Assembly: GCA_019912395.1 (NCBI GenBank)
Contig: JAIOIH010000062.1
Span: 62,001 to 126,000 of the forward strand
Length of the DNA stretch: 64,000 nucleotides
Source: Flavobacteriales bacterium
GTDB taxonomy: Bacteria; Bacteroidota; Bacteroidia; Flavobacteriales_F; PHOS-HE28
Direction of reading: 5' to 3'
Shown here: one piece after another, positions 8,851 through 24,265 of the stretch
Position numbering within the stretch: position 1 is the stretch's first letter
Layout of the letters: every line of letters starts with the position of its first letter
Translations under genes and position numbers: made by a program
The notes under the pieces: generated by a model
Database searches by the model: none
What the model was told of the DNA's origin: nothing
What the model saw: the letters and a program-made list of their open reading frames with translations, nothing else

Positions 8851-11800
8851 GTGGACGTACCCCGCCTTGTGGAACGGTTCGCCGGCAACGGTCACGGCCT
8901 CAATGATGTAGAAGTAGACGCCTTCACTGAGCAGTTCGCCACTGAAGGCATTCCGGCCATCCCAACTGGCGTTCCTGCCGGCCACCACGGCCACTTGCTG
9001 TCCCCAGCGATTGAAAACGCGGAGTTCAGCCTGTTTGAATCCAGGGCCTGCGAATTGGAACACATCGTTCACTCCGTCGCCGTTGGGCGTGATCACGTTA
9101 GGCGTTTCGGTCACCGGGTCCGGGGCATCGCAACTAATTACGTACGTGAGCCAGATCGCAGTGTCTCCGGCGCAATCACCCAGGACCGCATGGCACAGAT
9201 AGGCACCGCCATTTTCAGTGTTCACATCCGGTATCACGAGCTGGCTGCCGCTGTATGGGCCGCTTGGCGTAGACCAGAGAAACACGCTACCCGTGGTCCC
9301 CGCTGCGAAAAGGAAGAGGGTATCCCCAACGCAGACCTCCTCCTCCCCGGTGATCACGGGTGTTTGCGGCGCATCGAGCACCACGATGGCAGTGTACGCG
9401 GTATCGCTTGCACATCCGTTCAGCACATCCACGCATGCATACGTACCGTTGTGCATCGCATTGGCGATCGTGGGGCCGATCGAATCTCCTTGGAATACGC
9501 CCCAGGGAGTTGACCAATTGAAAATTGCCCCGGATGCGCCATCCGCGACCAGCAGCAGCATATCCCCGGTGCAGTACGCATCGTTACCGTTGATCACCGG
9601 AGCTGCGGGTACCTCCTGCACGAACACCACAACGGGAACAGGCTCGCCGGGGCATCCATTTTCCACCTGCAACAGAAAGAGGGTATCCGTGGTCAATGGC
9701 AGGTACGTCAATACCGCCCCTTCCGCCAGGAGTTCCGTTGTATCCGGCGAGGCATACCAGAAGAGGTCTCCTGATCCGGAACCCGTTAGTGTCACCACTT
9801 GCCCGGCGCAGATCGAATCCCCGGCGGCAGAGGCGGGTTGTGCGATCGATTGCGGAATCACAGCGATCGGGCCCGAGGAAACACTGCATCCGGCCGCATC
9901 GGTTGCGATCAATTCATACGTGCCCGGCGTGGTAACCACCAGTTGCTGCCCCGTTGCACCGGAAGGCAGCCATAGATAAGCCGAAGCACCGGGAGCCGTT
10001 AGCGTGATCGGCAGGTCTTGGCATAAGGCGAAGGTATCGGCGCCCAGGTCCGCACTGACACTGCTGTACACCACGTCATAACTGAGGTTCCAGTCATTCC
10101 CGCAACTGGATACGATGCACGAGTAGGTTCCGGGCGCAGAAACAGTTTGCACCAATGCATTCCCGGACAAGGGGGGTTGCCATTGCACCGTGCCACCGGG
10201 CTCAACCTCTATCTGTAGGCTCACGGATTCCCCGGGGCACAAGAGGCCGGCCGGCAGCCCGGAAATGAGGGGTGAACCAAAGAAGGAAATGGTGGCCGGG
10301 CCGTTGGAAACGCTGCATCCGGGGTAGAGCATGACCGTGAGGTAATAATCCCCCGGTTCATCCACCCAGATCGAATTGGAATGTGGAAGGAACGCCGTTC
10401 CCGGACCGGTCCAGATGTAGTCGGCACCAACGGCATCCGTGGAAAGCAGGACCAGCTCATTCGGGCATACCGTTCCGTTGGCAGGCTCCATGAACAAGGA
10501 CGGAGGCACCGGGCCGGAAACAACAACCGTTTGGTATTCCCCGGCACAGGGAAAGTTGTTCGATAGTGAGACCGGTATCGCGGAGTAGGTTCCGTTCTGG
10601 TCCACCAGAACGGTATCCGCGTTGGGCGATATCCAAACAATGCCCGGACCATTCCAAATGACCGTATCACAGTTGCTGCACGTGAAAGGGATCATCACGG
10701 TATCATCCACGCAACGCGGCACTACGAAGCTTGTGAACGTCACGCTCGGCTCATCCCCGACCTCCACGTACACGCTATCGGTGAAAATGAACGTGTACGG
10801 ATCTGTCGCACAATCCCCGTTCATCAGGACGACCTCGGAATGCACCGTGTACCATCCAGTCCCGTTCAGCTCCAAGCCCCAAGGGATCGGTTGGTACGCG
10901 TCAGTGATCCCGATCTGATCACATCCGCCCGTGGAGTGATAGGAAACCAAGTAGCCTAGAGGCATCTGCGTTTCCACACCGTCCACATACCACGTGTTGG
11001 TGAAATGGCCCGTGATGCAATTCGCATTACAGGTCTGGATGGTATCACTGCCGGTCAATTGGGAAGTAACCCCAGTGATGTTGAGGGGATCCACGATCTC
11101 GAAGACAAGTGGAAATTGGTTGCTACAGCCGCTCGATGAGTTCACCTGCAGCACATAGATCCCCGAAGCAGGAATATGGACGGTATCGCTGAAGGTGGTA
11201 TCCGACCCATTGATCCAGTAGGCCTGGTCCATCGAGCCCATCTGCTCGACCCAAAAAACCATGGGGCCACATGAGACGATCGGGCCTTGGATCGGCAGTT
11301 CCACGTTTTGGTAGGCTCCCGAACTATCCGAGACCGACGCTATGAGCGGAGTGTAGTTCACGAAGACGGAATCCGTCCAAGAAAGGCAACCGCTGCCACT
11401 GGACACGGTGAAGGAAACCCAGCCTGACGAGGACAGCCCGGTATATTCCAGCCCGGAACCCGTGGACCAAAGTTGATGGCTGAAAGGACCTGCCGTGGGG
11501 GTGGTTATCGAGCACAGTAGCTCTGTTCCACGCGGGAACGGCACGACCGATCCAAGTAAACTCGTCGCGGAGCAGATCGTGACCGTGTCCGGAGCTATCA
11601 CATCGTGGAAGGTGATCTGCACACCATCATCCAATGCTCCCCGATCACATTGTAGCACACCGCTCCGATCCCAGAAATCAAAAGGCTGCCGTCCTTCCAC
11701 GAAGCCTTTCGTCAGGAAGCCCGTTGCCAAACCGGTTCCGCTTGCCCAGGCCAGTTTGCCATAGTTGGGGTCATCGCAGAAGTTGAGACCTCCATTGGCT

Positions 11801-20127: not shown

Positions 20128-20388
20128 ATGATCGAATGGAAGCAGGCCGACATGGGTTTCGGCACCTTCGGCGTGAAGTTCGCGAACCCCGACTTCGTGA
20201 AATACGCCGAGAGCTACGGCGCCACCGGCCACCGCATCCAGCGCTCCGAGGACTTTACAGCCACCTTGGAGCAGGCCTTCACGGCAGGCGGGGTACACCT
20301 CATCGACCTACCCGTGGATTATTCGCAGAACGGCCCCGTGCTCCTGGAGGAGATCCCGAGGGTGAGTGCGGAGTTGGATCTTGGGTGA
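20128..20388 (+). pseudogene. Relic of catabolic acetolactate synthase (C-terminal 86 residues only)
   Basis: The translation opens 'MIEWKQADMGFGTFGVKFAN' and continues 'DFVKYAESYGATGHRI' and 'GVHLIDLPVDYSQN'. This matches the last part of the thiamine-pyrophosphate-binding C-terminal domain of AlsS-type acetolactate synthases (usually about 550 residues). The rest of the enzyme is missing: sequence left of about 20125 does not continue the fold. A start codon happens to fall at the break, but a protein with only this piece cannot be active. It sits at the left edge of the accessory region, so truncation by a past insertion or deletion is the likely explanation. Confidence 0.75.
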
Positions 20389-20410
20389 AGGGTGCGCAAC
20401 ATTTCTCAAA

Positions 20411-20507
20411 TATGAAAATAGGGCTTTAGTTCCTACGTCTTTCGCCCGAAAGCAAAAAGGCAAACCGTGATGAACTTGTGGCAAGCGCTTCACGCCCTAT
20501 TTTTATA
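20411..20507. repeat. Long inverted repeat with nested hairpin, 3' flank of the protease gene
   Basis: TATGAAAATAGGGC (20411-20424) pairs with GCCCTATTTTTATA (20494-20507), 13 of 14 positions. The 69-nt interior holds a perfect hairpin CTTTCG-cc-CGAAAG (20439-20452) and a CGTGA/TCACG pair. It ends 17 nt before the stop of the AT-rich protease gene, on that gene's downstream side. It could be a terminator, or the edge of a mobile cassette; the sequence does not decide. Confidence 0.6.
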
Positions 20508-20524
20508 GTTGGTGTTGTGTGTAG

Positions 20525-21349
20525 TTATTTCTTTTCAGCTTTCCCAATCTCGATGAGTTGCTGGATAGTTTCAATAATGTGGTCTACCGGTTCAACTGAC
20601 GAAAGGCCAGAGTTTTCCTCGAAGGTAATCCTTGGCCGTTTGGTCTGAACACTAATGGCAACATCTTGGTAAGGAATGTAACTCTTAACAATACCTATTA
20701 AACCAGATTTGTAATTTGACTTTGTACCAGCCACAGCGGTAACTTCAGGTTTGATAAATAATGGGCCACCACTATTTCCAGGAAAAACTAATGCATCACA
20801 AAGAAAATCCTTCTTTCGGCCCTCGTATAAGTCACGAATACGAGCAATACAACCTTCTCGAACTATTACGTATTGCCTGTCTGTATCAAGCAACGCCATC
20901 GGAAAGCCAAGAACATAGACACCATGGCCTTCGGAAATTTCCATTTGGCGCATTTGCTCTAAACGAAAGGCCGTGTGATTTTCCTTTATATAGTCGAGTT
21001 TCATGCCTTGCTTCCTGACCAATTCAATATTTATGTAGAATACCCCGACATCAACATTTGGGTCGTTGTGGCCATGATAGTTAGTTTTCCCAGCGGAACC
21101 TTTGTCAATAATGAAATCTTTTGATGACTGATCAGTTGTTGGATTAAATTTTATACAAAACTGGTGATGATTTAAAGCGACATGTTTGTTCGTGACCAAA
21201 CAAATCTTGTGATACTCGATTTCCCCTTCGGTTACCCCAGTGTACATTCCAAAAAGAAACCCTGTCCCAATCCACTTTTTCCTTTTGTGTTCGTCAAGAA
21301 CTCCGATTGCTACAACGGTGTCTAAAGCGGATGGATGAAGTAATGCCAT
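20525..21349 (-). CDS. Trypsin-like serine protease, cytoplasmic, AT-rich (acquired)
   Basis: The 274-residue protein has a chymotrypsin-like fold with a visible triad: His56 in 'CLVTNKHVAL', Asp100 in 'HNDPNVDVGVF' and Ser193 in 'FPGNSGGPLF'. There is no signal peptide or membrane segment, unlike HtrA/Deg proteases, and no PDZ domain. A 60-residue C-terminal tail ends in a helix ('VDHIIETIQQLIEIGKAEKK'). Base composition is conspicuously AT-rich compared with every neighbour, so recent transfer is likely. It lies between an acetolactate synthase relic, a palindromic flank and an integrase relic. Stand-alone intracellular trypsin-like domains occur in bacterial conflict systems, so a defence role is possible but unproven. 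Confidence 0.88.
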   Translation of the reverse strand: MALLHPSALDTVVAIGVLDEHKRKKWIGTGFLFGMYTGVTEGEIEYHKICLVTNKHVALNHHQFCIKFNPTTDQSSKDFIIDKGSAGKTNYHGHNDPNVDVGVFYINIELVRKQGMKLDYIKENHTAFRLEQMRQMEISEGHGVYVLGFPMALLDTDRQYVIVREGCIARIRDLYEGRKKDFLCDALVFPGNSGGPLFIKPEVTAVAGTKSNYKSGLIGIVKSYIPYQDVAISVQTKRPRITFEENSGLSSVEPVDHIIETIQQLIEIGKAEKK

Positions 21350-21363
21350 AGGGTGATTTTGTA

Positions 21364-21391
21364 ATTATACACAACTACTCAGTTGATGTAA
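21364..21391 (-). promoter_or_regulatory. Candidate sigma-70-style promoter of the protease gene
   Basis: Read on the minus strand, TTACAT (21386-21391) and TATAAT (21364-21369) are separated by 16 nt, and TATAAT lies 14 nt upstream of the ATG. The -10 is a perfect match to the proteobacterial consensus rather than the TAnnTTTG-like boxes seen elsewhere. In AT-rich DNA this may be chance. Confidence 0.3.
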
Positions 21392-21462
21392 CAGGTATTG
21401 ATATTTCGCCTATGTGAGGTATGCATATCGTGCCTTTTCGGCACGTAAAGCACACATTCAAC

Positions 21463-21570
21463 CTAGATGTCCAGATCATCCAATGCGTTGCGGTTCTTGC
21501 CCAAAGCCTTGGTGCTGTCATCGGTGCGGATCTCCGTGTTGGAACTGTGGCCTAACTGGGATCGAATATA
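21463..21570 (-). pseudogene. Decayed C-terminus of a tyrosine recombinase / integrase
   Basis: Minus-strand translation gives 'YIRSQLGHSSNTEIRTDD' followed by 'STKALGKNRNALDDLDI' and a stop. This is the end of a Bacteroidota phage-type integrase, where 'LLGHSSsktTEIYTHvs' precedes the last helix. Three residues are deleted after GHSS, and the catalytic Tyr of TEIYTH is replaced by Arg, so the fragment is inactive. Everything N-terminal of it is lost where the repeat element at 21571 begins. It supports a mobile origin for the adjacent AT-rich protease. Confidence 0.7.
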
Positions 21571-21729
21571 GCCTAAACACCGGCGCGCCTGCCTGCCTTT
21601 GGCAGGGGAGTTAGGCCTTCCGATACCTATCGGAACAGTACCTCCGGGAAGCGGCCGTCCTCCCGTGCCATCCGATCCTCTCCGAGGATAGTTCATGAAG
21701 GGAAGTCTCGCGCAGAGATGTGCCGTGAT
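21571..21729. repeat. Dispersed repeat, copy A (also at 24143 and partly at 22377)
   Basis: Bases 21575-21616 are identical over 42 positions to 24143-24184. The remainder (CGATACCTCCGGG-like through CCCGTGCCATCCGAT and AAGTCTCGCG) matches copies B and C with scattered changes. It contains the hairpins CCTGCC-ttt-GGCAGG and TTCCGATA-cc-TATCGGAA (21618-21635); the sequence from the second arm of the latter to about 21641 is absent from copy B. The element abuts the stop codon of the 21730 gene and the broken end of the integrase relic. Confidence 0.8.
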
Positions 21730-22311
21730 CTACCGCTTGCGTTTAGGAGGTTTGCATTCCTTGCAAAAGGCATTCAACCCCTCAATTTCTTGCAGTACTT
21801 CCTCGCGGAGTCCGAATAATTCTTCCCTGTTCCGTCCCAAGTCGGTGGCTTTAGCCGCATTTGTGTGCCTCACAGCAAATTCTTGTTGGATCTGATCGAA
21901 AACAGGACGGAAGAAGTTCATGTCCGAAAAAGCCCCTTTCTCTTCATAGAGTTTCTCTCTCAACTTCCGGGCATACAATTCGGCCAGGTCAAAGTCATAG
22001 CGTGCGAAAAGAAGGAGGTCCATTGCCGTTGAGCTATCCGGGGCGACCAGGACGGCCGCGTCACGCTTGAATGTGCAGTTCACCTTATCGTTGAAATTTT
22101 TCGTGAACATGAACTGTGCGTTGGACATGTAAAAGGCGAAATCAAAGCTCGCTGATGTGTTCAAGCTATAGATGTTACTCCCCCCGATCTGTGTGGCCGG
22201 TGATCTGAAATCGGAAAGTTGAAGTTCGTAGTCCTTGCTCCACTCAATTGTATTCTGGCCGAATGCGATCGTTGACAGAAGCAATAGTGCCGATGTGAAT
22301 AGTTGCCTCAT
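21730..22311 (-). CDS. Exported DUF922-like protein with a degenerate active-site motif (193 aa)
   Basis: A signal peptide is followed by 'IEWSKDYELQLSDFRSP', the usual opening of DUF922-type Bacteroidota proteins ('W..d..L.wsDF.g'). The central region ends in 'FDLAELYARKLREKLYEEK', which corresponds to the family's helix after 'kHEqlHFDIaElyARklrk'. At the HExxH position this protein reads 'LLLFARYDFDLAEL', so the metal-ligand histidines and the catalytic Glu are missing. If the family is a metallopeptidase, this member should be inactive. Family assignment is from recalled motifs. The Met at 22311 begins a better signal peptide than the one at 22335. The gene is bracketed by repeat copies A and C. 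Confidence 0.65.
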   Translation of the reverse strand: MRQLFTSALLLLSTIAFGQNTIEWSKDYELQLSDFRSPATQIGGSNIYSLNTSASFDFAFYMSNAQFMFTKNFNDKVNCTFKRDAAVLVAPDSSTAMDLLLFARYDFDLAELYARKLREKLYEEKGAFSDMNFFRPVFDQIQQEFAVRHTNAAKATDLGRNREELFGLREEVLQEIEGLNAFCKECKPPKRKR

Positions 22312-22361
22312 AGCGTGGTGGGCTGGAGGGGACATGTGCTCATCTGCTGCGGCCTGAGAAG

Positions 22362-24142: not shown

Positions 24143-24265
24143 AAACACCGGCGCGCCTGCCTGCCTTTGGCAGGGGAGTTAGGCAACCGATACCTCCGGG
24201 GAATAGCCGTCCACCCGTGCCAGCTGATCCTCTCCGAGCATTGTTCCGGAAGCGGAAGTCTTGTG
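24143..24265. repeat. Dispersed repeat, copy B
   Basis: The first 42 bases (24143-24184) are identical to 21575-21616 and the rest matches copy A with substitutions and one deletion (the second arm of copy A's TTCCGATA hairpin and a few bases after it). It is in the same orientation as copies A and C and lies about 66 bp beyond the stop of the minus-strand gene at 24332. Confidence 0.8.

Follow-up and report, generated by a model that had tools for sequence, protein, structure and literature searches.

Integron integrases are held to be defined by an IntI-specific domain around patch III, and the usual integron finder requires this domain (PMC9668308). In chromosomal integrons of the Treponema type, intI is transcribed toward attI (PMC3607928). 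As for hosts, only In0 elements had previously been known from Bacteroidetes, and the survey with IntegronFinder 2.0 then added one complete integron, in Salinibacter (PMC9024848). A second group of described systems concerns bacterial immunity, in which a trypsin-fold protease activates a pro-nuclease; pairs of a trypsin-like protease and a gated MBL nuclease are associated with Hachiman, AVAST, Lamassu and DRT (PMC12799240).

The locus described here may touch both groups. In the DNA analyzed (64 kb, hereafter the window), the initial annotation pointed out an AT-rich, recently acquired single-gene module inserted between relics. With a probability of about 0.88, we regard this unit as a single mobile gene cassette that belongs to an integron-like system. 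The foreign cassette sits at a conserved attI-like crossover, behind an integrase gene cut to 35 codons. The features are as follows.

20400..21374, minus strand: integron-type gene cassette of 975 bp (cassette start, one gene and attC)
21363..21375, minus strand: cassette start G^TTGTGTATAATT, with the crossover between 21375 and 21374
20525-21349, minus strand: protease gene, 274 aa, DegS/HtrA-like serine protease, cytoplasmic, PDZ-less, H56-D100-S193
20400..20526, minus strand: attC site, with R'' box 20514-20526, outer arms 20494-20511 and 20407-20424, and R' crossover G^TT at 20400/20399
21376..21462, minus strand: attI-like region, from the integrase stop to the crossover
21463..21570, minus strand: integrase relic, the final 35 codons of a tyrosine-recombinase gene that belongs to the platform (...NALDDLDI-stop)
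20128..20388, plus strand: left-flank relic outside the cassette, recognized from its translation

The palindrome 3' of the protease gene is real, its 18-nt arms (20407-20424 and 20494-20511) being 89% complementary. It had been taken for a flank, but comparison identifies it as an integron-type recombination site (attC). The bare single-strand fold is just moderately better than that of shuffled sequences (z -2.1; 6 of 200 shuffles equal it), so the significance of the palindrome rests on comparison with other genomes. When the 129-bp flank was used as a query against 395 genomes of the class, almost all matches outside its own genome fell into a single genus, g9 of family f9, whose repeats are 84-88% identical to the palindrome. 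An attC profile made from g9-family copies alone matches the window at 20529-20397 (E 1.3e-27). Across 23 sites the outer attC helices are paired in 95.7% of cells, and the covariation score of the outer stem is 0.277 versus 0.085 for shuffled versions, exceeding every one of 500 shuffles as well as each slid version; the R''/L''/L'/R' stem is thus conserved as a structure beyond its sequence. The cores of the window sites read GTTGTGT and GTTGCGC and those of g9 GTTGNNN, which do not fit the canonical RYYYAAC / GTTRRRY, and a strict scan gave no canonical site at the window locus. A search of the attC/cassette region against Rfam returned no match. Another palindrome at 21550-21615 (GCCTAAC...GTTAGGC) was considered as a canonical attC and dropped because of its overlap with the relic of the integrase and with a short repeat recurring near 24162. 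This short repeat, with a TGCCTTTGGCAG core, occupies 21575-21620 as well as the position near 24162, and the first of the two copies lies directly against the end at which the integrase relic is truncated.

The limits of the cassette follow from a rule of integron-type recombination. In an integron cassette, the start and the R'' box of the cassette's site make up one attC in the circular form, which requires the start to agree with the reverse complement of that box. In the window, GTTGTGTATAATT (21375-21363) matches GTTGTGTGTAGTT of the R'' box (20514-20526) at 11 of 13 positions, and a scan of the 64 kb found the start/R'' motif solely at the two ends of the cassette (0.05 expected). Since the rule is obeyed, the cassette spans 20400-21374, with one gene between G^TT crossovers, its own 3' attC and a start that agrees with R''. 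The junctions, previously placed at about 20390-20410 and 21391-21460, are thereby sharpened to 20399/20400 and 21374/21375. The TATAAT-type promoter proposed upstream of the gene is read differently here: the box (21364-21392) lies in the conserved cassette start, and promoter-like matches number 3 against 3.0 expected.

The same organization is seen at larger scale in g9. In one of its genomes (G052), 25 palindrome matches are lined up in series of one orientation, frequently located at contig ends, and the profile search shows more sites, with a spacing between a few hundred and about 3,000 bases; where read, these repeats come after the stop codon of a gene. Over 27 consecutive pairs, the cassette start agrees with the reverse complement of R'' at a mean of 11.1 of 13 positions, versus 7.7 for mismatched pairs (0 of 10,000 permutations as good). 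The integrase stop codon of G052 abuts a cassette start (TAG^TTGTGGTTAAT). The long f9 arrays in G052 (L215-L222) mix at least two attC sequence classes, and contigs tend to end inside arrays. The g9 arrays have 41-45% GC, and the protease gene 41%. The protease itself was present in no g9 genome searched, so the donor is inferred from attC and base composition.

Both flanking relics noticed in the initial annotation are real. The left one (20128-20388) presumably represents an acetolactate synthase C-terminus. The right-hand relic corresponds to the 3' terminus of a tyrosine-recombinase gene, the integrase of the platform itself. The integrase end and the attI-like region are 86% identical over 209 columns to a sister genome of the genus (G004:C2), and this homology ends at GAGTAG^TT, beyond which the sister has a different cassette; a second genome, G011, agrees. 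In the first cassettes of G004 (895 bp, 35% GC) and of G008 (865 bp, 34% GC), the start agrees with the cassette's own R'' at all 10 positions. The integrase gene of G004 itself is split into two parts separated by about 2.2 kb (G004:C2:310024-313085, L225), with attI and cassettes intact, an interruption which we take to be an IS66-type insertion. The source genome of the window also possesses an intact integrase on another contig (G000:C67:33082-34251; L227, L258), followed by attI-like sequence and a G^TT start near the contig end. A simple test found no attC behind this cassette start.

We therefore propose the following course of events. A cassette in circular form, derived from a relative of genus g9, would have entered attI by attC x attI recombination through the integrase of this lineage, excision and insertion being predicted steps; subsequent truncation of the integrase gene would have left the cassette frozen. 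Entry by another route, i.e., homologous recombination, a transposon or prophage decay, with the palindrome as a merely adjoining repeat, might be suspected because the genus has other interspersed palindromes, one of which adjoins the stop codon of a protease homolog in G016, and because a Mu-like phage carries one homolog. However, both cassette ends coincide with G^TT crossovers and show the mutual match typical of cassette ends, the attI homology of the sister breaks off at the same base, and the interspersed repeat of the genus differs in sequence from the window palindrome. Such a route is accordingly very improbable. With integron-type insertion as the preferred reading, a vague "AT-rich island" becomes a base-resolved recombination event with a likely donor lineage.

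The distribution of the gene within the genus is patchy, and its attC is of another family, which fits the view of a recently acquired module in the form of one cassette. Among 44 other genomes of the genus, a homolog is found only in G016 (48% identity) and a distant relative in G021, and the other 42 show no significant similarity. In G004, G028 and G031, the DUF2249 gene that flanks the unit in the window adjoins instead a gene that appears to be multicopper-oxidase-like. A search of sister genomes for a clean empty site at this locus gave none, as the DUF2249-SucC stretch is too divergent. The palindrome beside the G016 homolog was tried as an attC and rejected, being the interspersed repeat of the genus, and by eye the homolog does not follow the cassette rule. 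This repeat (GGGCGTGCCC...CACGCG) occurs in G016:C47 and 7 other genomes (L089-L100), with up to 13 copies per genome. The surroundings of the G016 homolog (L050:5105-6470) include, on the opposite strand, genes for a LexA/S24-type regulator and for a TIR-domain protein, in addition to a DUF2188 gene.

The cargo is a 274-residue protease, whose catalytic triad is found at His56, Asp100 and Ser193, as first annotated. In an alignment of 40 sequences including the window protein, H56 and S193 are invariant and D100 is at least 90% conserved, and the match to Pfam Trypsin_2 exceeds the cut-off. The gene has 40.6% GC and 38% GC3, whereas most neighboring genes have 54-63% GC and 68-86% GC3. The initial observation that it is far more AT-rich than its neighbors is confirmed (41% in surroundings of about 60% GC); among the neighbors, the gene at 21730-22335 is lower than most, at 49%. 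An AlphaFold2 model (pLDDT 90.6) has its nearest fold in PDZ-less DegS (Z 20.6, 2.4 A over 191 residues), and in the model the chain closes with a helix directly after the catalytic domain. The window protease therefore seems to share with the HtrA/DegP family the trypsin-fold catalytic domain, judging from the model, and lacks the C-terminal PDZ domain, no PDZ model matching it. A signal peptide has no room, since the starts of the relatives align from Met1 (MALIPP). Unlike DegS, DegP and HtrA, the protein shows no visible signal or membrane anchor and is carried on mobile units. The residue at the base of S1 is L187 in the alignment and is not acidic; therefore, the enzyme is predicted, as a guess from the alignment, to cut behind small or hydrophobic residues and not behind Lys/Arg. 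The window protease would then carry out cytoplasmic proteolysis with a non-tryptic specificity.

Neither scans of genome_contigs and viral_contigs with a single sequence nor a search of phage records gave a match, and a three-sequence alignment used as the query retrieved 50 loci in genome_contigs and 21 viral loci. The 40 aligned members, the window protein included, come from many bacterial phyla and from archaea. They share the triad, an N-terminus close to MALIPP and, toward the C-terminus, an ENSGL-like motif. In the tree, the window protein groups with members from Bacteroidota (support 86/94). In Anaerosomatales, one relative (L118) is preceded by a true intI (478 bits with TIGR02249) and by a canonical attC of 88 bp, and one from an archaeon (L115) lies before an attC-like site. 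A homolog of 49% identity occupies 10001-10792 of a Mu-like phage contig (L158), near transposition genes and between an unknown gene and a gene for a DNA-binding protein. Six relatives, from two parts of the tree, are preceded by a type I restriction-modification gene, hsdM in L141, L142 and L145 and hsdS in L122, L124 and L126. These subunits are the commonest neighbor family, as counted without a formal background estimate, and type I restriction-modification genes make up a tiny share of a genome. Most relatives, like the window gene, lie away from recognized defense genes, and no fused defense domain was seen. The HsdS-like subunit beside the relative in L124 (8211-10001) has an N-terminal nucleotidyltransferase-like stretch.

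What the protease does can be approached from these associations. The likeliest role, to which we give slightly less than even odds, is that of a protease against phages or mobile elements, which may act alone or beside type I restriction-modification and would cut a protein of the phage or of the host in the course of infection. The PADLOC model PDC-S45 (a phage defense candidate) matches at 2.9e-26, over positions 30-240 of 293, compared with 1e-103 or better for core members. Like PDC-S45, the window protein is a stand-alone trypsin-like protease of about 280 aa with a significant, if weak, model match; however, it forms with its relatives a branch well apart from the core proteins. In a literature search of incomplete coverage, a single mention of PDC-S45 was found. 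The early suggestion of defense or abortive infection thus gains from the PDC-S45 match, the restriction-modification neighbors and the Mu-like phage relative, and keeps its conditional form. A general intracellular protease of quality control or regulation, with no defense role and mobilized simply because integrons may capture any useful gene, is possible though not probable: the nearest fold is that of the DegS/HtrA housekeeping proteases, many relatives are surrounded by ordinary metabolic genes, and for some the position is conserved among related species, but such a function sits poorly with the patchiness in the genus, the spread over Bacteria and Archaea, the recurrent restriction-modification neighbors and phage carriage.

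An effector of abortive infection, which once triggered would kill the cell by cleaving an essential host protein, is unlikely. Trypsin-fold proteases do act in immunity, e.g., in nuclease activation (PMC12799240), and stand-alone protease genes are among the defense candidates listed in PADLOC; on the other side, no partner sensor, regulator or pro-enzyme was recognized in the cassette or adjoining it, nor was an MBL nuclease or a fused defense domain seen. Compared with the protease-MBL nuclease pairs (PMC12799240), the window protein shares a cytoplasmic trypsin-fold protease in a mobile, defense-linked setting and differs in being a single-domain, unfused protein of 274 aa; no MBL nuclease gene adjoining the protease was recognized in the window. 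For the tentatively preferred anti-phage role, this conserved cross-domain family of small cytoplasmic proteases, found with integrons, type I restriction-modification and phage, offers a concrete candidate for anti-phage testing.

The integrases behind these cassettes are unusual. Intact ones have about 390-445 aa, with an N-terminal extension of about 100 residues common to genera g1 and g9, and those of the window's genus and of g9 lack the IntI-specific stretch of about 40 residues that is present in the IntI of L118. The two integrases tested against NCBIfam fall below the cut-off of TIGR02249 (216 bits against 265) and above that of NF040815, a model for site-specific tyrosine recombinase/integron integrase (224 bits against 220). 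An integrase adjoining attI and cassettes is seen in G004, G008 and G052, and in G000:C67 as judged by the cassette start; in the window it is a relic. In two further families, two start/R''-matched cassettes lie behind the same integrase type in G087 (L286) and one clear cassette in G094 (L281). Related integrases, not all of which need be integron integrases, occur in 161 of 390 genomes of the class. Cassettes behind or among such systems were recognized in families f1, f9 and f44, and less surely in f5; the cassette-following test failed or was ambiguous at several integrase loci. A literature search of incomplete coverage gave no description of such integrons in this class. The chances seem evenly balanced that the class has a widespread integron type of its own, which the usual finder would miss, with a Xer-like integrase that carries an extra N-terminal domain and lacks the IntI-specific one, and that a cytoplasmic and probably defensive protease passed from one family to another on a cassette of this type.

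Set beside integron cassettes and sedentary chromosomal integrons, the system has cassettes of one gene followed by an attC hairpin on its 3' side, which are inserted at G^TT, form arrays of a single orientation and agree at their start with R'', and it resembles the Treponema type in that the integrase gene points toward attI and the cassettes. It differs in the roughly 100 extra N-terminal residues of its integrases, in a core of GTTG instead of the textbook GTTRRRY, and in its hosts, which belong to a class with little in IntegronFinder 2.0 (PMC9024848). Because its integrases lack the IntI-specific domain, the system is not filed as a canonical integron, although it appears to work like one. 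Since the integrases of these non-canonical systems are without the very domain by which the integron type is defined, the need for this domain is opened to a direct test.
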